A stretch of DNA of 44,763 nucleotides from Candidatus Aminicenantota bacterium (GTDB taxonomy: Bacteria; Acidobacteriota; Aminicenantia; Aminicenantales; UBA4085): assembly GCA_003141555.1 (NCBI GenBank), contig PLMN01000013.1:1-44763 (forward strand), given 5' to 3'. The position numbers and the translations under genes were made by a program. Of the stretch, positions 13,334 through 25,690 are shown piece by piece. The notes beneath the pieces were generated by a model that saw only the letters and a list, made by a program, of their open reading frames with translations, did no database searches and had not been told where the DNA came from. Each line of letters starts with the position of its first letter. Position 1 is the first letter of the stretch.

Positions 13334-14953
13334 TTATGGCGTGAACCTCGCAGGAATTGCAGGATAGAGGGACGGAATGCGGCGGGTTCGGTAAACGATA
13401 TCGTATTTGCCGAACTCCGCCACCGCGCATAGATTCCTAAAGCGGATCGTGGCCTCGAAGACGACGTCCCCGGCGGGATAGGTGACCTCCACGACCTTGG
13501 CGCTGGGATCCTCGGGGACTCGCACGACACCGGGTGCGATAAGGCGGTTCGAGGTCAGCGGCAGATATTGCACCGAGCTGATGACAGAGGCGTAAAGCTC
13601 CTTGCCGCGCTCCTTGCCGTACTGCCAGACTTGACGGACGGTCATGGCCCGTTCGTCCACCGCATATTCCACGCCCCGGGAAAAATATGGATCGCCGTCC
13701 CTGAACATCCTGTGTAAGCCGTTGTCGAAGACGAAGAGAGTCCCGTCCGGGGTGAGCATGGGATCGTGCTGGCCCCACGGCCAGTCGAAATCGTCGTCGT
13801 CGGCGAAACCGCTCTGGATGTCGTCAGGGTAAGGCGCGCCGCTCGCATCGACCGCCGTGAGGAGGTAGGGCGCGGGGCTGGGACCCGAGCCGTCCCAGCC
13901 CGATGCCACCCAGCCCGATTCGGCCCAGCTGGAATGGGCAGCCAGGATCCACACGAGCTGGTTGTCGCGCGTCACCTTGACGAGTCCCTGGTTGCGGCCC
14001 GAAATGATGAAGCTGTCGTCCTCCGGGCAATACCACACTCCGTTCATGTGGAACCAATCGCCCGGCGTGTCGATCTCCTCGTTTCGCCTGACATCCAGTA
14101 GAGCCCGCATGTCCCACTCCCGCAAAACCTTTCCGCTGGTCCGCTCGATCTGGATCATGTGGTCCGCGATGCTGGGGACGATCCCCATCCAGGTCACGAT
14201 CTGGGTCCCGGCCTTGTCCACGACGGCAAGGAGGCTCCCGTCGGGCATTTCCCGGACGTCGTGATGGAACGAGTAGCCGGGGACGTCGAGCCGATTGCAG
14301 AGCCGTCCCATGACGTCGTATTCATAGACAGTCGATCCCGTCCCGACGACGAAATGGCCGTTGGCCGTCTGCTCGAAGGGGATCGTCTGGCCCGGCGTCT
14401 GCGCGAGGTTGAAATAAGCCCGGACCTGCCCGGTCGCATCGAAGAGGAACGGAACGGTGACAGAGACCTCGCCCGTGAAATGGGAGAAAACGCTGAGATT
14501 GAATCCCGGCTCCATCTGAGACGGAACGGCTGTGTCGATCACGATCGTCGGGAAGAAATCCGGCAGCGGGTCCGTCGTGATCGACAGCGTCTGGTGCTCG
14601 GCCGTCCCGTGGTGGCGGTAAAGGGCGAGGTCGATCGTATTCTCTCGTCCGGGGTAGAGTCCGACGATCGGCACGGCGTGCTCCGTACTCTCGTCCATGA
14701 AATTCTTTTGGACCGGGATTTCGCCCCGGACCTCAAGAAAAACGTTGCAGGGAATGCGGGTGGTGAATTCGGCGAGCGCCGCCAGCGGGGCGATACCGTA
14801 AGGATTCAGCGTGAGCGTGATATCCGAGTCGATATAGCTCGACGAGGCTTTTACGCGGGCGACACGGACCTGGCCTGCGGACTCAGCGCTCCCAGGCAAA
14901 AAGATCGCCGCAAATAGAAATAGGACAAGACATGACGTTGTCTTCATGATCAT
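13334..14953 (-). CDS. Arylsulfate sulfotransferase (ASST family), secreted
   Basis: This 539-residue protein has a signal peptide (about 1-25) and the ASST beta-propeller. The catalytic residues known from E. coli AssT can be placed: the FHHD histidine (H230/H231) for H252; H302-M-N304 with R320 for H356-x-N358 and R374 (the spacing H to R of 18 is identical); and H396 in G-Q-H-D-P for H436, the histidine that carries sulfate. It should move a sulfo group between phenols in the periplasm without PAPS. No DsbA/DsbB-like partner is adjacent. Start is the ATG at 14953. The family call and active-site assignment are strong; substrates are unknown. Confidence 0.85.
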   Translation of the reverse strand: MIMKTTSCLVLFLFAAIFLPGSAESAGQVRVARVKASSSYIDSDITLTLNPYGIAPLAALAEFTTRIPCNVFLEVRGEIPVQKNFMDESTEHAVPIVGLYPGRENTIDLALYRHHGTAEHQTLSITTDPLPDFFPTIVIDTAVPSQMEPGFNLSVFSHFTGEVSVTVPFLFDATGQVRAYFNLAQTPGQTIPFEQTANGHFVVGTGSTVYEYDVMGRLCNRLDVPGYSFHHDVREMPDGSLLAVVDKAGTQIVTWMGIVPSIADHMIQIERTSGKVLREWDMRALLDVRRNEEIDTPGDWFHMNGVWYCPEDDSFIISGRNQGLVKVTRDNQLVWILAAHSSWAESGWVASGWDGSGPSPAPYLLTAVDASGAPYPDDIQSGFADDDDFDWPWGQHDPMLTPDGTLFVFDNGLHRMFRDGDPYFSRGVEYAVDERAMTVRQVWQYGKERGKELYASVISSVQYLPLTSNRLIAPGVVRVPEDPSAKVVEVTYPAGDVVFEATIRFRNLCAVAEFGKYDIVYRTRRIPSLYPAIPARFTP

Positions 14954-15193: not shown

Positions 15194-15661
15194 ATGGCGA
15201 AGGTCTTGATGATCCAGGCTGACAAATGCACGGGATGCCGGAATTGCGAGTTGGCCTGCTCCGCGTTCCATGAAGGCCGTTTCAGACCGCGATTGTCCCG
15301 GGTGCACGCCTACACGTGGGAAAGAGAAGGCCTGTCCGTTCCGATGATGTGCCAGCAGTGCGAGGATGCGCCCTGCGTAGCCGTCTGCCCGACCGGGGCG
15401 ATGCACCGCAACAAGGCCGAGAATTCGGTGGACTGGAACAAGAACACCTGCATCCGCTGCCGGATGTGCACCATCGCCTGCCCGTTCGGCAACGCCGTCT
15501 ACGATTCCGAAAGCAATGCCATCATCAAATGCGACCTCTGCTCCGGCGATCCCGAGTGCGTCAAATTCTGCCCCAACGAAGCCCTGACCTTCCTTGAGGG
15601 CACGATCGCCGTCCGGGCTAGGAAAAAGGCCTATGCCGCTAAGTTCAAGGAGGTAAGCTGA
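15194..15661 (+). CDS. Four-cluster iron-sulfur electron-transfer subunit (AorA-like)
   Basis: This 155-residue protein has sixteen cysteines in four groups: C12/15/18/22, C53/56/61/65, C86/89/92/96 and C113/116/122/126. That is the pattern of DMSO-reductase-type electron-transfer subunits with four 4Fe-4S clusters. It ends one base before the AOR gene, like the small AorA subunit that accompanies AorB in Aromatoleum-type aldehyde oxidoreductase. It should take electrons from the tungsten site and hand them to another acceptor. AorA-type proteins are known to polymerise into electron-conducting filaments carrying AorB. AGGAGG is 7-8 bases before the ATG. There is no flavin-binding AorC gene; hydrogenase genes follow instead. 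Confidence 0.85.
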   Translation: MAKVLMIQADKCTGCRNCELACSAFHEGRFRPRLSRVHAYTWEREGLSVPMMCQQCEDAPCVAVCPTGAMHRNKAENSVDWNKNTCIRCRMCTIACPFGNAVYDSESNAIIKCDLCSGDPECVKFCPNEALTFLEGTIAVRARKKAYAAKFKEVS

Positions 15662-15662
15662 C

Positions 15663-17474
15663 ATGTTCGGCTGGACTGGGACAATTCTAAGGGTGGATCT
15701 TAGCAGTGGGAAGATCTTAAAGGAATCGCTAGACCCGGGCCTCGCGAAAACGTATATCGGGGCGCGGGGCCTCGGCGCCAGGATCATTGTCAACGAGGTC
15801 GATCCGACGGCCGATCCTCTGGGGCCGGCCAACAAGCTCATCTTCGCCGCGGGACCTTTGACCGGCACATATGCCCCGTCCTGCGGCCGCTATGACGTCG
15901 TCACGAAAGGGCCGCTCAACGGGACGATTGCCGGCTCGAATTCGGGCGGCTCGTTCGGACCCGAGTTGAAGTACGCCGGCTACGACCTCCTGATCATCGA
16001 GGGGAAGGCGGCCAAACCGTCCTACATCTGGATTGAGGACGCCAAGGTCGAGATCCGGAGCGCCGAGCATCTCTGGGGGAAGAACGTCCCCGATGTGACC
16101 GACGCGATCCGGGCCGAAACGGACGATGAAGCAAAGGTCGCCTGCATCGGGCCGGCGGGCGAAAATCTGGTCCTTTTCGCCTGCATCATGAACGAGATGC
16201 ATCGGGCCGCCGGGCGGACGGGCGTCGGCGCCGTGATGGGGTCGAAGAACCTCAAGGCGGTCGCCGTTTCCGGAAGCGGGTCGGTCGTCGCCGCCGATCC
16301 GGACGCTTTCAAGCAGGCCGTGATGAAGGCCCGGCGGAAGATCCAGGCCAACCCCGTCGGCGGGAAGGGCCTTAAGGCTTACGGCACCGACGTCCTGGTC
16401 AACATCCTCAACAGCGTCGGTTCCCTGCCCACGCGGAATTCCCGCGACGCGTATTTTCCGACGGCCGACAAGGTCGGCGGGGAGACGCTCTCAGCGAACA
16501 ACCTCATCCGCCCCAAGGGCTGTTTCTCCTGCATTATCAGTTGTGGCCGGGTCAGTCGGGTCACCGACCCGAAATTCGAAGGGCTGGGGGAGGGCCCTGA
16601 GTATGAAACGGCCTGGGCATTCGGGCCGGCTTGCGGGATCGACAACCTGGATGCCGTCCTGAAGGCCAATTTTCTCTGCAACGAGCTGGGGCTGGATACG
16701 GTAACGATGGGTTCGACCATCGCCTGCGCCATGGATATGTTCGAGAACGGAATCCTGACTTTGAAGGACACCGGAGGCCTGGCCCTCAATTTCGGGAACG
16801 CGGACGCCATCGTGGAGCTGACCAAGCAGACGGCCTACAAGGAAGGCCTCGGGGCGAAGCTCGCCCTCGGTTCGTACCGGTTTGCCAAAAGCTTCGGCCA
16901 TCCGGAATACTCGATGACCGCCAAGAAACAGGAGATGCCCGCCTATGACCCAAGAGCCGTCCAAGGCATCGGTCTTCAATACGCGACTGACAACCGAGGA
17001 GGCGATCACGTCCGCGGGTATACGATCGCGGTCGAAGTCTTGGGCAACCCCGTGAAGATGGACCAATACGCCACGAAAGGGAAAGCCGAACTCGTCAAGA
17101 CGTTTCAGGACTTGACGGCCGCCCTCGATTCTTCGGGGGCCTGCCTCTTCACGACGTTCGGGATCGGGGCCGACGAGCTGGCCGAGATGCTGAGCGCCGC
17201 GACCGGCGTCCCCTATTCGACGGCCGAGTTCATGAAAATAGGAGAGAGGATTTGGAACATGGAGCGCCTGTGGAATCTCAAGTCCGGTCTCTCGGCCAAG
17301 GACGACACGCTTCCGGAACGTCTCCTCAAGACCCCGATCGTGACGGGGCCTTCGAAAGGCCGGGTCAGCGAGCTCGGTACGATGCTCCCCGAATACTACG
17401 AGATCCGGGGCTGGGATAAGAACGGAGTTCCGATGGCCGCGAAACTCAAGCAACTGAGCCTGGCGGGCGCATAA
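15663..17474 (+). CDS. aor: Aldehyde:ferredoxin oxidoreductase, tungsten-type (AOR family)
   Basis: This 603-residue protein is full length for the family. It starts with the AOR_N pattern (M-F-G-W-T-G-T-I-L-R-V-D-L) and has A-G-R-T-G-V-G-A-V-M-G-S-K-N-L-K-A-V, the pterin-contacting segment. The 4Fe-4S ligands are C287, C290, C294 and, far downstream, C494, almost the same positions as in Pyrococcus AOR. It should oxidise aldehydes to acids, or reduce acids at low potential, using a tungsto-bispterin. AGGAGG precedes the ATG. It lies between its iron-sulfur partner and hydrogenase genes, and the ThiF/MoaD pair at the end of the operon could help make its cofactor. No signal peptide, so it acts in the cytoplasm, probably at the membrane. 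Confidence 0.93.
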   Translation: MFGWTGTILRVDLSSGKILKESLDPGLAKTYIGARGLGARIIVNEVDPTADPLGPANKLIFAAGPLTGTYAPSCGRYDVVTKGPLNGTIAGSNSGGSFGPELKYAGYDLLIIEGKAAKPSYIWIEDAKVEIRSAEHLWGKNVPDVTDAIRAETDDEAKVACIGPAGENLVLFACIMNEMHRAAGRTGVGAVMGSKNLKAVAVSGSGSVVAADPDAFKQAVMKARRKIQANPVGGKGLKAYGTDVLVNILNSVGSLPTRNSRDAYFPTADKVGGETLSANNLIRPKGCFSCIISCGRVSRVTDPKFEGLGEGPEYETAWAFGPACGIDNLDAVLKANFLCNELGLDTVTMGSTIACAMDMFENGILTLKDTGGLALNFGNADAIVELTKQTAYKEGLGAKLALGSYRFAKSFGHPEYSMTAKKQEMPAYDPRAVQGIGLQYATDNRGGDHVRGYTIAVEVLGNPVKMDQYATKGKAELVKTFQDLTAALDSSGACLFTTFGIGADELAEMLSAATGVPYSTAEFMKIGERIWNMERLWNLKSGLSAKDDTLPERLLKTPIVTGPSKGRVSELGTMLPEYYEIRGWDKNGVPMAAKLKQLSLAGA

Positions 17475-17489
17475 CCGTCGCCTAAGACA

Positions 17490-20400
17490 ATGGCCCTGCC
17501 GCCGTTGTTCTCTCTGGCTCCTGTAGGCCTCCTGCTCGCGGGAGTGCTCGTTGTCGCCCTCTCCTCGAAAGTATTAACTTCCCGAGGCAAGGGCTGGCTG
17601 GCCTTTTCCTTCGGCCTGGCCGCGTTCCTTTGCGTCCTTATCCTTTTCACGACCACATCTCGGGGCGGAGTCATAGACCTGAGACTGGGCGCCTGGGACG
17701 GCCCCATCGTCCTGGCCTATCACATCGATGGCTTGAGCCAGCTCTTCGCCCTGATGGCCGCCGGCATCGGGGCCGCGGTCCTTGTCTTTTCCGTGGGCTA
17801 CATGGCCCGTGACCGCGCCGCGACCCGCTTTTTCATGCTCATACTCGTGTTCATTGCGGGTTTGATCCACCTGGTGTATGCGGCGGACCTGTTCCTCATG
17901 TATCTGAGCTGGGAGATCATTGGCCTCTGCTCCTTCCTGCTGGTCGGATTCTGGTACAAGGACCCCGAGGCGGCCAGGGGCGCGCGGAAAGTCCTGGTGA
18001 TGACGCATATCGCCGGATACGGATTTCTGGCGGCGGTCCTCATCCTTCACGCCCGAACCGGGACGACCCTGTGGACCGATCCGAGGATGGCCCCGGCTTT
18101 TTCGACCGGCCTCTTTCTGCTGATGCTTGTCGCCGCAATGGCGAAGTCCGTTCAGTTTCCCATTCATACCTGGATCCCGGATGCCATGGCCGCGCCCACG
18201 CCCGTCAGCGCGCTCCTCCACGCCGCGTGCTATGTCACGGCCGGCGTCTATCTCGTGGCCAGGATGCACAGCTTCGTTCCCTGGCCGGCGTCCTGGCAGA
18301 GTCTTGTCGTCTGGATTGGGACGGTCAGCCTGCTGGTCGGCGCGCTCTTCGCGATGGTCCAGTCGGACCTGAAACGCATGCTGGCCTTCAGCACGATCAG
18401 CCAAATCGGCTACATGATGCTGGGGTTGGGCCTTGGAACGCCCTTGGGCATCGCGGCCGGCCTGCTTCATTGCCTGAACCACGGCCTGTTCAAAAGCGGG
18501 CTTTTTCTCTGCGCAGGGAGCGTCCAGCAGGCAACAGGGACGAGGGACATGAATGTCCTGGGAGGCGTCGGAAAACGGATGCCGTGGACGATGGCCCTCT
18601 GGCTGGTCGGCGGGGGGGCCATCGGAGGCTTCCCCCTGCTAAGCGGCTTCGTCAGCAAGTGGCTGATCTACACCGCCGCGCTGGAGGCCGGCCGGATCGT
18701 GCCCGCCCTCGCGGCCTGGATCGGGAGCACCCTCACCGTTTTCTATATCCTCAAGGCGACGAGCGGCGTTTTCCTCGGCGATCCGACCCCCGCGGCCGAC
18801 GTGGCACGGGAAGTACCGCGGACCATGCTGGCCGGCGGGATCGTTCTCGGAACGGGGACGGTCGTCCTCGGCCTGGCTCCTCAGATCGCCATCCGCTATG
18901 TCATAAATCCTCTTCTTCCGAACCTGGGCGCCGCACCGGTCATCGGAGTCTCCTGGCTGGGGCTGACCGCGGGGACCGGAACTTGGTTCTCCACGGCCGG
19001 CTTCGTGCTCGTTCTTCTTGCCGTGGCCATCGGTGTCGCGATCTACGCGACCGCGAGGCCCGTTTCGGCGCGCCGGGCGGGAGGCTTGAGCTTCGCGCGC
19101 GCGGCCGGGACGCCGTTCACCGGAGGCGAGCCGATGGCGGTTCCTTCGCGGCTTTCCGCGGGAGATTTCTCGCTCATCGTCAAGACGGCTCTCAAGCCCT
19201 TTTATCGGTGGATGGACATGGACCTTTATTACGCCGCCGCCTGGAAGGCGATCAACGCCGTTTGCCGGGCGGCCGCGCAGGCCGGGCGGTGGGTCGAAAA
19301 ACGGGCCGTTCCGGCGCTCATCGGCCTGTCGGCGCTCATCATGCTCGTCGTCGCCGTGGCGATCCCCGGCGGCGAGCGTACGGGGGGGACCGCGGCGCCG
19401 TTCAGCGGAAGGCCCCTTATCCTCGGTGTCGGGGTGGCACTCATCGCTCTTATGATGAGTTCGACCAAGTCCCGGGACATGCGGGGCCGCCTTCCGATCA
19501 TGGCCGGAGCGGGGCTGGCCGCCTTCGCGAGCCTATGGGCCGGGCCCGTGACGATGAGATTTCTTCTCCTGGACGCGGCGGCGTTCGCCGCCTTGTACCT
19601 GGTCTGGAAAACGAGCCGGGGGGCGATCGCCAGAAAAGCCTACTTGGCCGCCGTCGCCATTTCGGTCGCCGCGACAATCGGGGGGGACCTGGTCAAGAAC
19701 AGCGCCCCACGGTCCGTGGTCATCGCCCTGTTTATAACCGGATTCGCCATCAAGCTGGCCCTGGTCCCCTTATATATCTGGCTTCCCCTCGTCGCCGAAT
19801 CGGTCCCGGCTGTGGCCGTGGGACTCGTGACGGCGGTCGTGGACGTAGCCGCGTTCGGCCAGCTTCTGGTATTGAGGCAAAGCTCGCCCTGGCTTTTCGA
19901 GCCGGCCTTCCCCTGGATAATATTCGCTTTGCTCTCGGCTTTCGTCGGCGCCGGGCTAATGCTCGGTCAGAAGGACCTCAAGCGGCTCTTGGCCTTCTCC
20001 ACGATCGAGGACATGGGATACCTTGTTCTCGGCGTGACGGTGGCGGGCAATCTGGGACTGGCGGGAGCCGCGGCCGGCGCGACAGTCCATGCTCTGGCCA
20101 AAGCCCTCCTTTTCTCGAGCCTGACGAAAATCGAGTCCGACGGCGTTCCTTTGTCGCTTTCCGTAAGGGGTATGGCCTCCCGTTACCCGGCGGCCGGGAC
20201 TGGCTTCCTGTTCGGAATGCTGGCCATGCTCGGCCTGCCGCCAACCGCGGGCTATCCGGCCCGCTGGAGGCTTTACCAATGTGCCGGCCAGGCCGGGGCC
20301 TATGCCCTGGTCATCCTGATCGCCGCCACGGCTCTGGCCGTGCTGGCCTACAGCCGGGCGATCACTTATTACTGGTGGGGCGGGGGAGATACGATCAAGG

Positions 20401-20492
20401 CGTCGGAGCCGGCCGTCCTGACTGTCGTGTATGCGGGCCTGGCGGTCCTGTTGCTCATATTCGGGCTCATGCCGCGGCTCCTGATGGGATAA
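17490..20492 (+). CDS. Fused antiporter-like subunit of energy-converting hydrogenase (EchA/CooM/NuoL type)
   Basis: This 1000-residue membrane protein is about twice the usual antiporter subunit. Module 1 (about 1-560) is a complete NuoL/MrpA-like channel: E142 in Y-L-S-W-E, K219 in A-K-S-V-Q-F-P-I-H-T-W and K335 in H-G-L-F-K-S-G, with S-D-L-K-R-M-L-A-F-S-T-I-S. A linker with an amphipathic stretch (about 560-600) leads to module 2 (about 610-1000), which keeps K755 (F-A-I-K-L-A-L-V-P-L-Y-I-W-L-P), a second K-D-L-K-R-L-L-A-F-S-T-I and K871, but has lost the WE glutamate and the front helices. Large CooM-like subunits are known. It should move H+ or Na+. The ribosome-binding site is weak; the ATG is 15 bases after the AOR stop. 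Confidence 0.9.
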   Translation: MALPPLFSLAPVGLLLAGVLVVALSSKVLTSRGKGWLAFSFGLAAFLCVLILFTTTSRGGVIDLRLGAWDGPIVLAYHIDGLSQLFALMAAGIGAAVLVFSVGYMARDRAATRFFMLILVFIAGLIHLVYAADLFLMYLSWEIIGLCSFLLVGFWYKDPEAARGARKVLVMTHIAGYGFLAAVLILHARTGTTLWTDPRMAPAFSTGLFLLMLVAAMAKSVQFPIHTWIPDAMAAPTPVSALLHAACYVTAGVYLVARMHSFVPWPASWQSLVVWIGTVSLLVGALFAMVQSDLKRMLAFSTISQIGYMMLGLGLGTPLGIAAGLLHCLNHGLFKSGLFLCAGSVQQATGTRDMNVLGGVGKRMPWTMALWLVGGGAIGGFPLLSGFVSKWLIYTAALEAGRIVPALAAWIGSTLTVFYILKATSGVFLGDPTPAADVAREVPRTMLAGGIVLGTGTVVLGLAPQIAIRYVINPLLPNLGAAPVIGVSWLGLTAGTGTWFSTAGFVLVLLAVAIGVAIYATARPVSARRAGGLSFARAAGTPFTGGEPMAVPSRLSAGDFSLIVKTALKPFYRWMDMDLYYAAAWKAINAVCRAAAQAGRWVEKRAVPALIGLSALIMLVVAVAIPGGERTGGTAAPFSGRPLILGVGVALIALMMSSTKSRDMRGRLPIMAGAGLAAFASLWAGPVTMRFLLLDAAAFAALYLVWKTSRGAIARKAYLAAVAISVAATIGGDLVKNSAPRSVVIALFITGFAIKLALVPLYIWLPLVAESVPAVAVGLVTAVVDVAAFGQLLVLRQSSPWLFEPAFPWIIFALLSAFVGAGLMLGQKDLKRLLAFSTIEDMGYLVLGVTVAGNLGLAGAAAGATVHALAKALLFSSLTKIESDGVPLSLSVRGMASRYPAAGTGFLFGMLAMLGLPPTAGYPARWRLYQCAGQAGAYALVILIAATALAVLAYSRAITYYWWGGGDTIKASEPAVLTVVYAGLAVLLLIFGLMPRLLMG

Positions 20493-20516
20493 GGTCTGAC
20501 TGGAGGAATGACGACG

Positions 20517-20999
20517 ATGGGTGTCTTCGACGGACTGGTCGCGAAATCGCAGCGGAGGTCCCCGTGGCTCTTCCGGTTGAATTCGGGAGGATGTAACGGC
20601 TGCGACATCGAATTCTCCGCCTGCCTCGGCCCGCGTTACGACGTGGAGCAGACGGGCGCCTTGCTCGTGGGAAGCGCCAGGCATGCCGACATCCTCTGCG
20701 TGACGGGGCCCGTGACCCGGGGCGCGCGAACCGCGTTGGAGACGATCTTCGCCCAGATCGGTGAGCCGAAAGCGGTCGTGGCCGTCGGGAACTGCCCGGC
20801 GACGGGCGATGTCTTCGCGGGGAGCCCGGTCATCGTTGGTCCGTTGGATCGCGTAATCCCTGTGGACGTGTACATCCCCGGGTGCCCGCCGCGGCCGAAC
20901 GACATCATCGAGGGGATCGCCAAGGCCGTAGCGACGCTCCCCGCGAAGGGAGTCCGTGCCCGGAACGGGGCGAAAAACGGAGGCCCGGCGACGGAATGA
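20517..20999 (+). CDS. Energy-converting hydrogenase small subunit (EchC/CooL/NuoB type)
   Basis: This 160-residue protein has the NuoB-family cluster site C26-N-G-C29-D-I-E, C93 in G-N-C-P-A-T-G and C123 in P-G-C-P-P-R-P. These four cysteines bind the proximal 4Fe-4S cluster next to the NiFe site. There are two in-frame ATGs: 20508 has its GGAGG only one base away, while 20517 has a 10-base spacing, so I prefer 20517. The short length and lack of extra domains are typical of group 4 hydrogenases. Its stop overlaps the start of the membrane subunit gene (ATGA). Confidence 0.9.
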   Translation: MGVFDGLVAKSQRRSPWLFRLNSGGCNGCDIEFSACLGPRYDVEQTGALLVGSARHADILCVTGPVTRGARTALETIFAQIGEPKAVVAVGNCPATGDVFAGSPVIVGPLDRVIPVDVYIPGCPPRPNDIIEGIAKAVATLPAKGVRARNGAKNGGPATE

Positions 21000-21904
21000 A
21001 CACCGCGAAAGTCGTGTTGCGGCTGCTCGTGTTTCCGGGGCTTCTCTATGCCCTGCCCGCCGCCTGGCTCATGCTGTGGATCGAGCGCAAAGCTCGGGCA
21101 AGGATGCAGGGGCGCATCGGCCCGCCTTTCTTCCAGCCTTTCTTCGATTTCGTCAAGCTCATGGCCAAGCGGACCGTTCCCATGCCCCCGTTCGATGCGA
21201 TCCTGACGGCCGGATTGCCGATCCTGGCCGGCTCCTCACTCCTGGTTGCTCTCAGCCTTTTGCCGGTTCTGTCGGGATCAGGCGGCTTCGTGGGAGATCT
21301 AATCCTGCTTGTCACCCTGCTCGAGGTCCCGGCCCTTGCCGCAGTCCTGGCCGGGTTCGCCTCGCACTCGATCTTCGGGCAGTTGGGAGGCGCGAGGGAG
21401 GCCGTCCTGAGCATCGTTTCGAGCGTTCCTTTCCTCACAGCCGCCGTCGCCTTGGCCGCGTCGGCCCACAGTCTCAGGCTTGCCGATATCGCGACTCGTC
21501 CCATAGCGGCCGCCAGATGGCCCGCGGTCCTCGCTCTCGTCCTCTGCCTTCCCATGAAGCTCCGAACCAACCCTTTTTCCTTGGTCAACGCCGAGCAGGA
21601 GATCTATTCGGGGCCGTTAACGGAGTATAGCGGGCCGAAGTTGGCCCTCTGGGAACTCGTTCACGGGATGGAGTGGGTCGCTCAGACGGGATTGATCGTC
21701 TGCCTTGCCTTGCCCCTGAGCTCGGGGCGGGCCGTCCAGGATATCGGCCTGCTGATCGCGGGGTCTTTCTTCCTGGTCGTCCTTCTGGCGCTGACGGCTT
21801 CCGGCACGGCAAGGCTGAAAATCAAACAGGCCGGCCGGTTCTACTGGAGTTGGGGCTTGGCGTTCTCCCTATTGGCCCTGGTCCTGGCGGTCATTCCGAG
21901 ATGA
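20996..21904 (+). CDS. Energy-converting hydrogenase membrane subunit (EchB/CooK/NuoH type)
   Basis: This 302-residue protein has about eight transmembrane segments and NuoH-family landmarks: W-I-E-R-K-A-R-A-R-M-Q-G-R-I-G-P-P in the first cytoplasmic loop and A-E-Q-E-I-Y-S-G-P-L-T-E-Y-S-G-P in the later one. These loops contact the hydrogenase arm and line the route that couples electron transfer to ion movement. I chose the ATG at 20996; a longer upstream frame would overlap the small subunit gene by 118 bases. The end overlaps the next gene (ATGA). Confidence 0.9.
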   Translation: MNTAKVVLRLLVFPGLLYALPAAWLMLWIERKARARMQGRIGPPFFQPFFDFVKLMAKRTVPMPPFDAILTAGLPILAGSSLLVALSLLPVLSGSGGFVGDLILLVTLLEVPALAAVLAGFASHSIFGQLGGAREAVLSIVSSVPFLTAAVALAASAHSLRLADIATRPIAAARWPAVLALVLCLPMKLRTNPFSLVNAEQEIYSGPLTEYSGPKLALWELVHGMEWVAQTGLIVCLALPLSSGRAVQDIGLLIAGSFFLVVLLALTASGTARLKIKQAGRFYWSWGLAFSLLALVLAVIPR

Positions 21905-21918
21905 GGAGGATGCGGCGG

Positions 21919-22452
21919 ATGAGCATCTTAGGCGTCATCTCCGGGAACTTGAGGAAGCGGAAGATCACGATCCGGTTCCCCGGGGAGGTTCCCCATCCAG
22001 ACACGTATCGCGGAGCCGTTGTCATCGATGAGGCCAAGTGCGTCTGCTGCGGTATGTGTCATTACGCCTGCGTCTCCGAGGCGATCGTCGTCACCGCCTT
22101 TGGGGACCGCTTCGTCTGGGACTATAATATCGGGCGTTGCACGTTCTGCGGAAAGTGCGTCGAAATCTGTCCTTCGCGGGCGTTGTCCCAGACCTCCGAT
22201 AGCCCGCCTCCCTATGCGGAGCCGGCCGAAGTTACGGGCTCCCACGCGATACTCTATCCGCCTTGCGCCGAATGCGGCCGGCCTGCGCTGCCCATCACCG
22301 ACACGGTTCTCCTCAAGGCGTTCAAGGAGATCGGCGAGGACATCGCGTCCTGGAGCAAACTGTGCCTGAGGTGCCGTCGCCGGAGGTATTCGAAAGGCCT
22401 CGCCGCTGGCCTGAAATCGACCCTCGGCCGGGATATGAAAAAGCCGGAATAA
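21919..22452 (+). CDS. Two-cluster ferredoxin subunit of hydrogenase (EchF/NuoI type), with extra cysteines
   Basis: This 177-residue protein has two 4Fe-4S motifs: C41-V-C-C44-G-M-C47-H-Y-A-C51 and C74-T-F-C77-G-K-C80-V-E-I-C84-P. They carry electrons from a donor to the small subunit cluster. After these a C-terminal region has two more pairs, C116-A-E-C119 and C149-L-R-C152, that could form a zinc or additional iron-sulfur site. I chose ATG at 21919, with GGAGG 10 bases upstream; starts at 21901 and 21910 are in frame and possible. A spare cysteine at C43 is unusual. It could be where AorA docks. Confidence 0.85.
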   Translation: MSILGVISGNLRKRKITIRFPGEVPHPDTYRGAVVIDEAKCVCCGMCHYACVSEAIVVTAFGDRFVWDYNIGRCTFCGKCVEICPSRALSQTSDSPPPYAEPAEVTGSHAILYPPCAECGRPALPITDTVLLKAFKEIGEDIASWSKLCLRCRRRRYSKGLAAGLKSTLGRDMKKPE

Positions 22453-22464
22453 CAGGAGCCGGAC

Positions 22465-22899
22465 ATGGATCTAGACGGGATCCCCTCCGCGATCGGCGCG
22501 GCGGGAACATGGACGAAGAAAACGGACGCCTGGTGGCTTGATGCTTCCGGGGCCGATCCCGCGGTCATGGCTCGGGCGATGCTCGATGCCGGCGCGCGCC
22601 TGGTGACGATGACGGCGATATCCGTCCCGGAAGGGGAGTTCCGGGTAATCTATCATTGGGACGTGGAGGGGCGGCTTTTGAACACCGCTGTCATGACGAA
22701 AGAGGAAACGCTGCCCAGCATCTCCGCGATCACGCCGGCGGCCGACTGGATCGAGCGGGAAATCCATGACTATTTTGCCGTCAAGTTCACCGGCCGCGAT
22801 TTGCCGCCCATCTTTCTGGCCCCGGAGGATCCGGCCGGAGCCCTGCGCTGGAATCTCCGGTGGGAGGGGCCGGGGAAGGAAGGGAAGGGCGAAGGATGA
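22465..22899 (+). CDS. Hydrogenase 30-kDa-type subunit (EchD/CooU/NuoC type)
   Basis: This 144-residue protein is a shortened NuoC-like subunit. It ends with the family signature W-I-E-R-E-I-H-D-Y-F-A-V-K-F-T-G-R-D, which corresponds to ERE-x-D-x-FG-x-x-F-x-G-H-P. It bridges the large subunit to the rest of the peripheral arm and has no cofactor. AGGAG precedes the ATG. Its stop overlaps the large subunit start by ATGA, so the two proteins are likely made in equal amounts. Confidence 0.85.
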   Translation: MDLDGIPSAIGAAGTWTKKTDAWWLDASGADPAVMARAMLDAGARLVTMTAISVPEGEFRVIYHWDVEGRLLNTAVMTKEETLPSISAITPAADWIEREIHDYFAVKFTGRDLPPIFLAPEDPAGALRWNLRWEGPGKEGKGEG

Positions 22900-23972
22900 G
22901 TTACATCGTTCCTATCGGACCCTATCATCCCGCCCTCGAGGAGCCGTGCCGGATCGATCTGACATGCGAAGGAGAGACCGTCAGGGAAGCCGCGATCATC
23001 CTCAAGTTCAATTTCCGCGGCGTCGAGTGGCTGGCCGAGCGGAGGAATTTCATCCAGGCCGTGGCCCTCGTCGAAAGGGTCTGCGGTATTTGCTCGAACG
23101 TCCACGCCATAACCTTCTGCCGTTCTCTGGAGACCATCGCCGGGATCGAAGTCCCCGAAAGAGCCCGCTATATCCGGGTCGTGGTCTCCGAACTCGAACG
23201 GGTGACTTCCCACCTGCTCTGGACGGGCCTGGCCGCGGAGGTCATGGGCTTCCAGACGCTGTTCATGACCTGCTTTGCCCTCCGCGAGCGGGCGATGGAC
23301 ATCCTTGAGCGGATCTCGGGGAACCGGGTGCACTACGGGATGAACTGCATCGGCGGCGTCACGCGGGATGTGGCCGATCCCGGACGCGTTCTGGGCGAGA
23401 TTCGGAGGCTCGGCGAAGAGACGGCGAAAAAGATCGTGCCCGTTTTCCAGAACGACCGGACAATCCGGGCGAGATGCGCCGGAATCGGAATCCTGCCCGA
23501 GGAGCAGGCCCGGGCCTGGGGCGCCGTCGGCCCCACGGCCAGGGCTTCGGGCGTTCCCCAGGACATCCGCAAGGCCGCCCCCTACGAGGCTTATGACAAG
23601 CTTGAATTCCGCGTGCCCGTCGAAACCGCGGGCGATGTGAACGCCCGCGTCGTGGTCCGTCTGCTCGAGCTCATTGAGGCCTACGGGATCATCTCCCAGG
23701 CGCTTGAAAAGATGCCGGCGGGCCCTTTGCGCGGTCCGGAGTTCGTGGAGATTCCCGCCGGAGAAGCGACGGCGCGTTCCGAGGCGCCGAGGGGAGAGTG
23801 CTTCTATTATGTCGCCTCGGGCGGGATGGACGCTCCCCTGAGGGTGAAAATCCGGACCCCGAGCTTCGTGAACATACCGCTGGTCAGGATCATGGTCCTT
23901 GGGGCGAACCTGGCGGATGTCCCCCTCATCAATGCTTCGATCGATCCGTGCTATTCCTGCACATGCCGTTGA
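22896..23972 (+). CDS. Group 4 [NiFe] hydrogenase large subunit (EchE/CooH/NuoD type)
   Basis: This 358-residue protein keeps both NiFe-binding motifs: R61-V-C63-G-I-C66-S-N-V-H near the N-terminus and D-P-C352-Y-S-C355-T-C-R at the C-terminus. Complex I NuoD proteins have lost these cysteines, so this is a hydrogenase rather than a dehydrogenase subunit. The protein stops directly after the last motif, with no C-terminal extension for a maturation protease to remove; CooH-type enzymes are known to be like this. I chose ATG at 22896, overlapping the NuoC-like stop. It would make H2 from protons with electrons from the iron-sulfur subunits, or run in reverse. HypA-F maturation genes are not in the window. 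Confidence 0.93.
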   Translation: MSYIVPIGPYHPALEEPCRIDLTCEGETVREAAIILKFNFRGVEWLAERRNFIQAVALVERVCGICSNVHAITFCRSLETIAGIEVPERARYIRVVVSELERVTSHLLWTGLAAEVMGFQTLFMTCFALRERAMDILERISGNRVHYGMNCIGGVTRDVADPGRVLGEIRRLGEETAKKIVPVFQNDRTIRARCAGIGILPEEQARAWGAVGPTARASGVPQDIRKAAPYEAYDKLEFRVPVETAGDVNARVVVRLLELIEAYGIISQALEKMPAGPLRGPEFVEIPAGEATARSEAPRGECFYYVASGGMDAPLRVKIRTPSFVNIPLVRIMVLGANLADVPLINASIDPCYSCTCR

Positions 23973-24033: not shown

Positions 24034-24771
24034 ATGATCACGGAAGATGAAGGCGATCGTTACGAGCGACAGATCAGGCTGTTCGGCCGGAAAGGCCAGG
24101 AACGGCTGAAGGCCGCCAAGGTCTTCGTGGCGGGAGTCGGCGGCCTCGGGTCGGCCATCTGCACCTACCTTGCGGCGGCCGGGGTCGGAACGCTGAGAAT
24201 CGTCGATGGGGGGACGGTCGAGAGGAGCAACCTCAACCGGCAGTTCCTGTTCGACGATAACGACATCGGGAGGATCAAGGTCGAGGTCGCCGCGGTCCGG
24301 ATTGGACGGATCAATCCCTCCGTCAGGATCGAGGCCCTGCGGGAGACGATCACGAATAGGAACGCCCCTGAGCTCGTCGGCGACTGCGCGATCATCCTCG
24401 ATGCGATGGACAATTATGCCGCCCGATACGCGCTGAACGACGCCGCCTGGGCGATGGGGATTCCCTTCGTTCACGGAGCGATCGATGGCTTCTACGGGCA
24501 GGTCACGACCTTCGTGCCCGGACGGACGGCCTGCCTGCGATGCATCGTCCCGGCCGAGCCGCCCGGCCGGACGCTTCCCGTCATCGGGGTTTCTTGCGGC
24601 ATCATCGGAAGCTTCGAAGCCGCCGAAGCCATCAAGTTTCTCGTCGGGAAAGGTTGCCTGCTCGAAAACAGGCTCCTCATGCTGGACGGGATGAATTCCA
24701 TCGTCGAGGAAGTGGCCCTGAGGAACGATCCGAACTGCCAGATCTGCGGAAGAGGAGGCTCAGGCCGATGA
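24034..24771 (+). CDS. ThiF/MoeB/HesA family adenylyltransferase
   Basis: This 245-residue E1-like protein has the nucleotide loop V-A-G-V-G-G-L-G-S, the R-S-N-L-N-R-Q-F arginine finger segment and D-A-M-D-N. Two cysteine pairs, C-L-R-C (in TACLRCIVP) and C-Q-I-C (near the C-terminus), make the usual zinc site. It activates the C-terminal glycine of a MoaD/ThiS partner as an adenylate. The partner gene overlaps it by ATGA. In AOR operons this pair is read as supplying sulfur for molybdopterin/tungstopterin. I chose ATG at 24034, with GGAGG 3-7 bases upstream. It follows the hydrogenase large subunit after 61 bp. Confidence 0.88.
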   Translation: MITEDEGDRYERQIRLFGRKGQERLKAAKVFVAGVGGLGSAICTYLAAAGVGTLRIVDGGTVERSNLNRQFLFDDNDIGRIKVEVAAVRIGRINPSVRIEALRETITNRNAPELVGDCAIILDAMDNYAARYALNDAAWAMGIPFVHGAIDGFYGQVTTFVPGRTACLRCIVPAEPPGRTLPVIGVSCGIIGSFEAAEAIKFLVGKGCLLENRLLMLDGMNSIVEEVALRNDPNCQICGRGGSGR

Positions 24772-25043
24772 AGGTCACGGTCCGATTTTTCGCGATGTTC
24801 CGGGAAGTCTTTCAAGCGAGGGAGAGGGATGTCGTGATGGCGGAGGGCGCCACGATCGCCGACCTTCTGGAATCCCTCTGTACATCGTCAAAGGAGCGAG
24901 ACGAGCTGTTCGAGAACGGAACGTTGAAGCCCTTCCTCATCATTTTGAAAAATGGCCGGCATATCCAGCACCTGGAGGGGCTCGCCACCGTGATTGAGAA
25001 CGGGGACGTTATCTCCGTCTTCCCAGCCGTTGCCGGGGGATAG
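24768..25043 (+). CDS. MoaD/ThiS-like sulfur carrier protein
   Basis: This 91-residue beta-grasp protein ends in A-V-A-G-G, the double glycine that is adenylated and thiocarboxylated. It has V-R-F-F-A-M-F-R-E at the N-terminus and I-E-N-G-D-V-I-S-V-F-P before the end, as in MoaD. It should donate sulfur to the pterin cofactor of AOR. It overlaps the adenylyltransferase by ATGA and is the last gene of the operon. Confidence 0.88.
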   Translation: MKVTVRFFAMFREVFQARERDVVMAEGATIADLLESLCTSSKERDELFENGTLKPFLIILKNGRHIQHLEGLATVIENGDVISVFPAVAGG

Positions 25044-25111: not shown

Positions 25112-25690
25112 TCAAGTGCTGAATCTCTTTTCCACGTTCGCCCAGTTGATGATCCCCCAGAGCGCCTTGACATAGTCGGGCCGGCGGTTTCGATAGTCGA
25201 TATAATAGGCGTGCTCCCAGACATCAAAGGTCAGCAGGGCCTTTTTGCCGTGTTTGAGCGGCATGTCCGCGTTCGAGGTGGACAGGATCGACAGCTTCTC
25301 GGCGCCTTCCTTGATAAGCCAGGCCCATCCGCTGCCGAAGGTTTTGACCGCCGCATCGGAGAACTTCTCCTTGAAGGCATCCAGGCTGCCGAAATTCTGG
25401 GCCAGCAATTTCTCGATGGCGGCCGTGGGCTTGCTGCCGCCGGGCTTAAGACTCTCCCAGTAGAAGGTGTGGTTCCACACCTGGGCGGCATTGTTGAACA
25501 CGCCGCCTTCGGCGCGCTTGATGATCTCTTCGAGTGAAAGACTCTCCAAATCCCCGCCCTTGATGAGGTTGTTGATGTTGGCGACATAAGCCCGATGATG
25601 CTTGTCATAGTGGAACTCGATGGTTTCTTTCGAGATAACCGGAGCCAGTTCGTTCTCACCGTAAGGAAGCTTGGGAAGTTCAATGGCCAT
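25112..25690 (-). CDS. sodB: Fe-type superoxide dismutase
   Basis: This 192-residue protein has metal ligands H27, H74, D156 and H160, in H-Y-D-K-H-H, N-H-T-F-Y-W and D-V-W-E-H-A-Y-Y. The A-A-Q-V-W-N-H-T-F-Y-W segment, with Gln before the second ligand, is the pattern of iron enzymes. It turns superoxide into H2O2 and O2 in the cytoplasm. It is convergent with the AOR-hydrogenase operon, whose metal clusters are oxygen-sensitive. GGAG lies about 9 bases before the ATG. Confidence 0.93.
   Translation of the reverse strand: MAIELPKLPYGENELAPVISKETIEFHYDKHHRAYVANINNLIKGGDLESLSLEEIIKRAEGGVFNNAAQVWNHTFYWESLKPGGSKPTAAIEKLLAQNFGSLDAFKEKFSDAAVKTFGSGWAWLIKEGAEKLSILSTSNADMPLKHGKKALLTFDVWEHAYYIDYRNRRPDYVKALWGIINWANVEKRFST

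Follow-up and report, generated by a model that had tools for sequence, protein, structure and literature searches.

The window, the whole stretch of 44,763 nucleotides that was analyzed (contig PLMN01000013.1 of a Candidatus Aminicenantota bacterium), carries a run of ten same-strand genes that begins with an aorA-like gene at position 15194 and ends at position 25043, with gaps of at most 61 nt and several overlaps. The aldehyde oxidoreductase (AOR) gene begins 1 nt after aorA and is followed by a complete group-4 [NiFe] hydrogenase operon, resulting in the gene order AorA, AOR, fused antiporter, NuoB-, NuoH-, NuoI-, NuoC- and NuoD-like subunits, ThiF and MoaD. The ten genes and three features within them are listed below with the basis of each assignment.

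15194..15661, + strand: aorA-like (WorS) subunit, 155 aa, four [4Fe-4S] motifs (phmmer, Foldseek, AlphaFold2 model, alignment of relatives)
15605..15658, + strand: codons for residues 138-155, predicted C-terminal helix, counterpart of the Aromatoleum aromaticum AorA filament helix (AlphaFold2)
15647..15653, + strand: AAGGAGG, Shine-Dalgarno sequence of the AOR gene inside the aorA 3' end, encoding the last K-E-V (sequence)
15663..17474, + strand: aorB-like (WorL) tungsten aldehyde oxidoreductase, 603 aa, [4Fe-4S] ligands C287/C290/C294/C494 (Pfam AFOR_N/AFOR_C)
17490..20492, + strand: antiporter-like membrane subunit, 1000 aa, two Proton_antipo_M domains, NuoL plus NuoN-like fusion (domain matches)
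20508..20999, + strand: NuoB/HycG-like hydrogenase small subunit, one [4Fe-4S] (Oxidored_q6, NuoB models)
20996..21904, + strand: NuoH/HycD-like membrane anchor (NADHdh)
21901..22452, + strand: NuoI/HycF-like subunit, two [4Fe-4S] motifs and a C-terminal Cys quartet (profile matches, predicted model)
22264..22374, + strand: Cys quartet C122-x2-C125-x29-C155-x2-C158 and Arg127, proposed AorA-docking extension (sequence, HycF comparison)
22465..22899, + strand: NuoC-like subunit (Complex1_30kDa)
22896..23972, + strand: [NiFe] hydrogenase large subunit, RVCGIC...DPCYSC, four of four NiFe ligands (motifs, profile match)
24034..24771, + strand: ThiF/MoeB-like adenylyltransferase, pterin cofactor synthesis (ThiF)
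24768..25043, + strand: MoaD-like sulfur carrier, C-terminal GG (profile matches)

The operon is flanked by a divergent arylsulfotransferase (ASST) gene (13334-14953, - strand) and by an iron/manganese superoxide dismutase gene (25112-25690, - strand) that is convergent with the operon end.

The first open reading frame of the run starts with ATG and stops with TGA, and its product contains 16 cysteines (12/15/18/22, 53/56/61/65, 86/89/92/96, and 113/116/122/126), all of which are invariant in an alignment with 35 relatives. The phmmer matches include the small subunits 9mqx_E (50% identity, E = 2.9e-45) and 8c0z_C (42% identity, E = 1.4e-37), and a Foldseek search with the AlphaFold2 model (mean pLDDT 81.5) returned 9mqx and 8c0z as the best PDB matches (E <= 5e-15). 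Orthologs with 90-91% identity occupy the same genomic place in two further genomes of the order (G044 and G046). These matches and the orthologs exclude a chance reading frame and confirm a real AorA-type gene, with the four 4-Cys motifs, the double-ferredoxin fold and the adjoining AOR gene that characterize AorA/WorS small subunits. The sequence-only reading, which had placed an AorA-like protein with four 4Fe-4S clusters and 16 cysteines in four groups at 15194-15661, was correct in both identity and coordinates. Inspection of the protein, whose N-terminus begins MAKVLMIQADKC, revealed neither a Tat signal nor a transmembrane segment, and an assignment to the periplasmic Class V of the tungsten oxidoreductases (WORs) was rejected for this reason. 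An Rfam search gave no match.

The adjoining AOR matches 9mqx_D (E = 2.4e-242) as well as 1aor and 8c0z_A. Three further AORs are encoded in the same genome, each without an adjoining AorA. The NuoD-like large subunit retains both NiFe motifs and is closest to the large subunits of MBH and formate hydrogenlyase (FHL); together with the NuoB/H/I/L-like partners, its two CxxC motifs identify a group 4 [NiFe] hydrogenase, and the hydrogenase maturation gene hypD was found in the same genome. The first domain of the antiporter retains the channel Glu and Lys residues in an alignment to 8e9g_L; the roles of these residues in NuoL of complex I are well established. All genes of the cluster were identified, and the cluster contains neither AorC, the FAD/NAD subunit of Class III WORs, nor the WorABC proteins of the bifurcating Class IV WORs. 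FdhF is likewise absent from the cluster, where the AOR-family enzyme occupies its place, as are the CO dehydrogenase (CODH) and CooF of Coo hydrogenases.

In a phylogenetic analysis the hydrogenase-linked AorAs form a single clade (support 98/95) and the AorC-linked AorAs a separate clade (100/100), with the WorABC-linked AorAs also placed apart. Neighborhood annotation showed that AorC accompanies the AorAs of the AorC clade and never the hydrogenase-linked ones. Residue 60 of AorA touches AorC in 8c0z (PMC10413684); all 13 AorC-clade AorAs have Trp at this position, which no hydrogenase- or WorABC-linked AorA has. By the tree, the AorA subtype tracks the electron acceptor. AorC/NAD was rejected as the acceptor at this locus, since the gene is missing and the W60 contact is lost, which agrees with the earlier suggestion that the AorC/NAD route is missing here. 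A bifurcating system was rejected because WorABC is missing.

Relatives were surveyed by scanning species genomes with AorA, by searches with the hydrogenase large subunit and the AOR, and by annotation of the neighborhoods. The AorA-AOR-hydrogenase cluster is also present in G044 and G046 (another family of the same order), in G289 (another family of the same phylum), in Longilinea arvoryzae (L123) and G797 (Chloroflexota class), and in Azospirillum sp. TSO35-2 (L035, Alphaproteobacteria). Its distribution is sporadic (3 out of 94 genomes within the order of the window). An AorA-AOR pair with a truncated AorA lies at a contig end in an Actinomycetota metagenome-assembled genome (MAG; L033), and this AorA belongs to the hydrogenase-linked clade. 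In Pelotomaculum propionicicum (L124) the AorA-AOR pair is followed by a different, HycE-like hydrogenase; the AorA of this cluster groups with the WorABC-linked AorAs, and the cluster represents a second recruitment. The same organism contains an AorA-AOR-WorABC bifurcating cluster (L125) in addition to the hydrogenase-linked one, and the AOR of L124 looks interrupted near its end (a 547-aa frame and a separate 3' piece).

The catalytic partner of the hydrogenase is exchanged in two relatives. A second copy in L. arvoryzae (L034, 7101-17081) contains an AorA with 55% identity, which falls within the hydrogenase-linked clade, and the same hydrogenase without an AOR; a Mo-hydroxylase of the xanthine dehydrogenase family is encoded upstream, making a purine or aldehyde hydrogenlyase composed of Mo-hydroxylase, AorA-like protein and group-4 hydrogenase possible. 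In G776 (L135:3963-15602), CODH and a CooF-like ferredoxin accompany a hydrogenase that is 68% identical to that of the window, the most similar one outside the order. These partner changes indicate that ferredoxin and hydrogenase stay together when the catalytic partner is exchanged. A hydrogenase of the same clade is solitary in G428 (L134).

The link between ferredoxin and hydrogenase is also reflected in the NuoI-like subunit. The best PDB match of its predicted model is HycF (7z0s_F) over 161 columns, compared with mostly ~95-135 columns for NuoI of complex I, and Arg127 is the equivalent of HycF Arg122. In E. coli FHL the quartet-bearing extension of HycF contacts HycB (PMC9474812). The quartet is present in all 10 hydrogenases that are linked to a four-cluster ferredoxin (AorA- or CooF-like), among them the independent enzyme of Pelotomaculum, and in none of 19 distinct hydrogenases without a linked ferredoxin, a set that belongs mostly to one Ech-like clade with few independent contrasts and was in many cases viewed with a 1.5 kb flank only. 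The unlinked hydrogenases are mutually related and some of them entered the raw Fisher test twice; its p value was therefore not used as proof. The quartet is missing in the solitary enzyme of G428; it is present in L143, where the contig stops before any partner position. The correlation suggests that AorA docks on the Cys-quartet extension of the NuoI-like subunit. HycB carries a loop of ~38 residues between Cys motifs 3 and 4 that is missing in AorA, so that the docking cannot match that of FHL exactly and the contacts would differ in detail.

Together, these observations make it probable that the locus encodes an FHL-like membrane complex in which FdhF and HycB are replaced by a tungsten AOR and AorA, that is, an aldehyde:H+ oxidoreductase or "aldehyde hydrogenlyase". 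In such a complex, AOR would convert an aldehyde to its acid, and electrons would pass from W via the AOR [4Fe-4S] cluster, the four AorA clusters, the two NuoI/HycF-like clusters and the one NuoB-like cluster (eight [4Fe-4S] clusters, 1+4+2+1, as in E. coli FHL) to the [NiFe] site, where H2 would be produced, with the NuoH/antiporter membrane arm spending the free energy on ion pumping. AorA would act as a fixed connector docked on the NuoI-like extension; a stack of several AorAB units per hydrogenase would be possible but unnecessary. That AorA sits between the tungsten AOR and a hydrogenase that pumps ions, as the earlier reading had proposed, appears well supported by the recurrent clusters, the module swaps, the separate AorA clade and the HycF-type extension on NuoI. 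Gene order, full ligand sets and the quartet-ferredoxin correlation are evident in the sequences as well; the physical complex, its docking site, the direction of the reaction and ion pumping are inferred.

One of the nearest known systems, E. coli FHL (HycBCDEFG-FdhF; 7z0s/7z0t, PMC9474812), shares with the locus a pterin enzyme with one [4Fe-4S] cluster next to a four-cluster (HycB-type) ferredoxin, a HycF-like subunit with the C-terminal Cys quartet and an Arg after its first CxxC, counterparts of HycG, HycD and HycE, and an antiporter. It differs in having FdhF instead of an AOR-family tungsten enzyme and in the long HycB loop; furthermore, NuoC is separate from NuoD in the window, the antiporter is a 1000-aa double-domain fusion and the hydrogenase large subunit belongs to another clade. 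The group 4c Coo hydrogenase (CooMKLXUH with CooF/CooS) resembles the locus through the G776 relative adjoining CODH and a four-cluster ferredoxin, the fused antiporter and a gene order comparable to that of Rhodospirillum rubrum, but the window has AOR/AorA in place of CooS/CooF and its AorA is only 34% identical to the CooF-like protein of G776. A. aromaticum AorABC (Class III WOR, 8c0z) has an AorA that aligns without gaps and has the same helix start, and an AorB homolog, whereas the acceptor in the window is a hydrogenase instead of AorC. The electron-bifurcating W-AOR (Class IV WOR, WorSLABC; 9mqx), a wire-like WorSL stack feeding one plug, provides the closest AorA and AOR sequences in the PDB, but WorABC is replaced by the hydrogenase. 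Pyrococcus furiosus MBH (6cfw) contains the solved large subunit closest in sequence; it is ferredoxin-fed, has no HycB/AorA-like subunit and its NuoI-like chain (139 aa) is too short for the quartet extension.

An ordinary soluble two-subunit AOR of the Class II type might instead reduce free ferredoxin, with a merely co-transcribed hydrogenase drawing on the same pool. MBH and Ech hydrogenases accept electrons from ferredoxin. Class II WORs are made up of just the two subunits and use ferredoxin (PMC13328260). A link through free ferredoxin would predict neither the separate clade of hydrogenase-linked AorAs, nor an AorA that stays beside the hydrogenase in L034 where AOR is replaced, nor the correlation of the quartet with a ferredoxin partner, and these three findings make it unlikely. 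The proposed complex could also run mainly in reverse, with H2 oxidation and the ion gradient driving the formation of aldehydes from organic acids. Because H+/H2 is less negative than the aldehyde/acid couple, H2 formation is downhill, which counts against this direction; group-4 hydrogenases are nonetheless reversible. The reduction of acids with H2 by A. aromaticum AOR in vitro, as described in PMC9295118, favors the reverse reaction, which is nevertheless considered improbable here.

The aldehyde hydrogenlyase reading is compatible with a wire, in which several AorA-AOR protomers (n >= 2) are stacked via the AorA C-terminal helix and plugged into the hydrogenase, which replaces AorC or WorABC, so that many tungsten enzymes would feed one ion pump. 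In A. aromaticum, deletion of AorA from residue 138 onward abolishes filaments (PMC10413684). A tail helix is predicted for residues 138-154 of the window AorA at low confidence (pLDDT about 57-68, AlphaFold2), starting where that deletion starts, and the tail motif ARKKAYAAK aligns with ARMQAWAAK of A. aromaticum. All three groups (hydrogenase-, AorC- and WorABC-linked) share conserved residues at positions 143 (K/R), 145 (mostly K/R), 147 (mostly aromatic), 148 (A/S) and 150 (mostly K/R), and three orthologs differ in their tail codons by 0-1 non-synonymous versus 7-9 synonymous changes. On this comparison, the published restriction of the tail to the AorABC subclade looks too narrow.

The end of the tail serves a second function. 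The Shine-Dalgarno sequence embedded in the KEVS codons is found at homologous positions in L028, L123, L136, L033, L124, and L125; it is retained in most relatives with a following AOR but has been lost from L034, where none follows. The codons of the final EV(S), GGAGGT, form the AOR ribosome-binding site, which accounts for the conservation there, and these last residues were not counted as interface evidence. The aorA 3' end is, by its sequence, a coupling of protein tail and translation signal. Four residues of the G044 and G046 orthologs, AFKE (12 bp, one helical turn; region 15640-15655), are missing from the window AorA; they lie between two TTCAAGGA repeats and were probably lost by slippage, with the ribosome-binding site left intact. 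The sequence-only reading had tied a filament like that of A. aromaticum to conservation of the AorA-AorA interface; compared at the level of the helix only, the start at residue 138 and a partly conserved helix speak for it, while the final EV(S) drops out as a ribosome-binding site.

A filament in this system is plausible from the predicted helix, and stacking of at least two protomers is given somewhat less than an even chance. Both of the closest solved relatives stack (8c0z, PMC10413684; 9mqx, an electron-bifurcating W-AOR according to its Foldseek title), if 9mqx is taken as the wire-forming A. mobile enzyme of PMC13328260, and on that identification two of the three AorA groups (AorC- and WorABC-linked) contain wire-forming enzymes. 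The helix start, the motif likeness and the codon differences point in the same direction, and the tail is retained in L034 although AOR is replaced, which suggests a role beyond AOR binding. Against a wire, HycB, for which no polymerization is reported, has a similar tail start, stacking does not occur in the WOR5 and BamC homologs, the EV(S) residues are otherwise accounted for, the window copy lacks the AFKE turn, the pLDDT of the helix is low, and a single FHL-like AorA bridge would be enough. The extended form of this reading, an AOR-decorated AorA nanowire plugged straight into the ion-pumping [NiFe] hydrogenase that would gather electrons from dilute aldehydes into one pump without a soluble carrier and would constitute a new WOR class with a swappable membrane plug, is doubtful and is offered tentatively.

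The 2026 classification of tungsten oxidoreductases comprises five classes, none of them hydrogenase-linked, and names hydrogenase only with regard to Hdr homologs (PMC13328260); by subunit content alone, the system would probably be filed as a simple ferredoxin-dependent Class II WOR. An Asgard paper treats AOR and group-4 hydrogenases as separate systems, and no earlier description of an AOR-AorA-hydrogenase complex was found in the openly accessible literature. If the aldehyde hydrogenlyase reading is true, the complex would add an aldehyde-driven type to the formate hydrogenlyase family and represent a WOR class outside the five-class scheme, and four-cluster ferredoxins would form a common socket that makes tungsten AOR, Mo-hydroxylase and CODH exchangeable on one type of ion-pumping hydrogenase. 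Azospirillum sp. TSO35-2, L. arvoryzae and P. propionicicum are named strains with such clusters that are usable for tests.

The survey also revealed AorA genes in other contexts. A further AorA group (L043:7972-11806, L052:1322-3893, L046, and L047) lies beside distant AORs that are 33-36% identical to the AOR of the window, and neither AorC nor WorABC nor a hydrogenase was found as its partner; an HdrA-like gene follows in L043, and the group perhaps uses another electron acceptor. An AorC-type AorA with a full tail is present in Cycloclasticus (L055:9998-10468), with no AOR gene in the neighborhood examined, and L054 and L067 are similar cases. In a Rhodospirillaceae MAG (L105:10001-10414), which has no AOR nearby, the AorA reading frame of 137 aa stops before the tail helix, and CoxL/XDH-like genes are located on the opposite strand.
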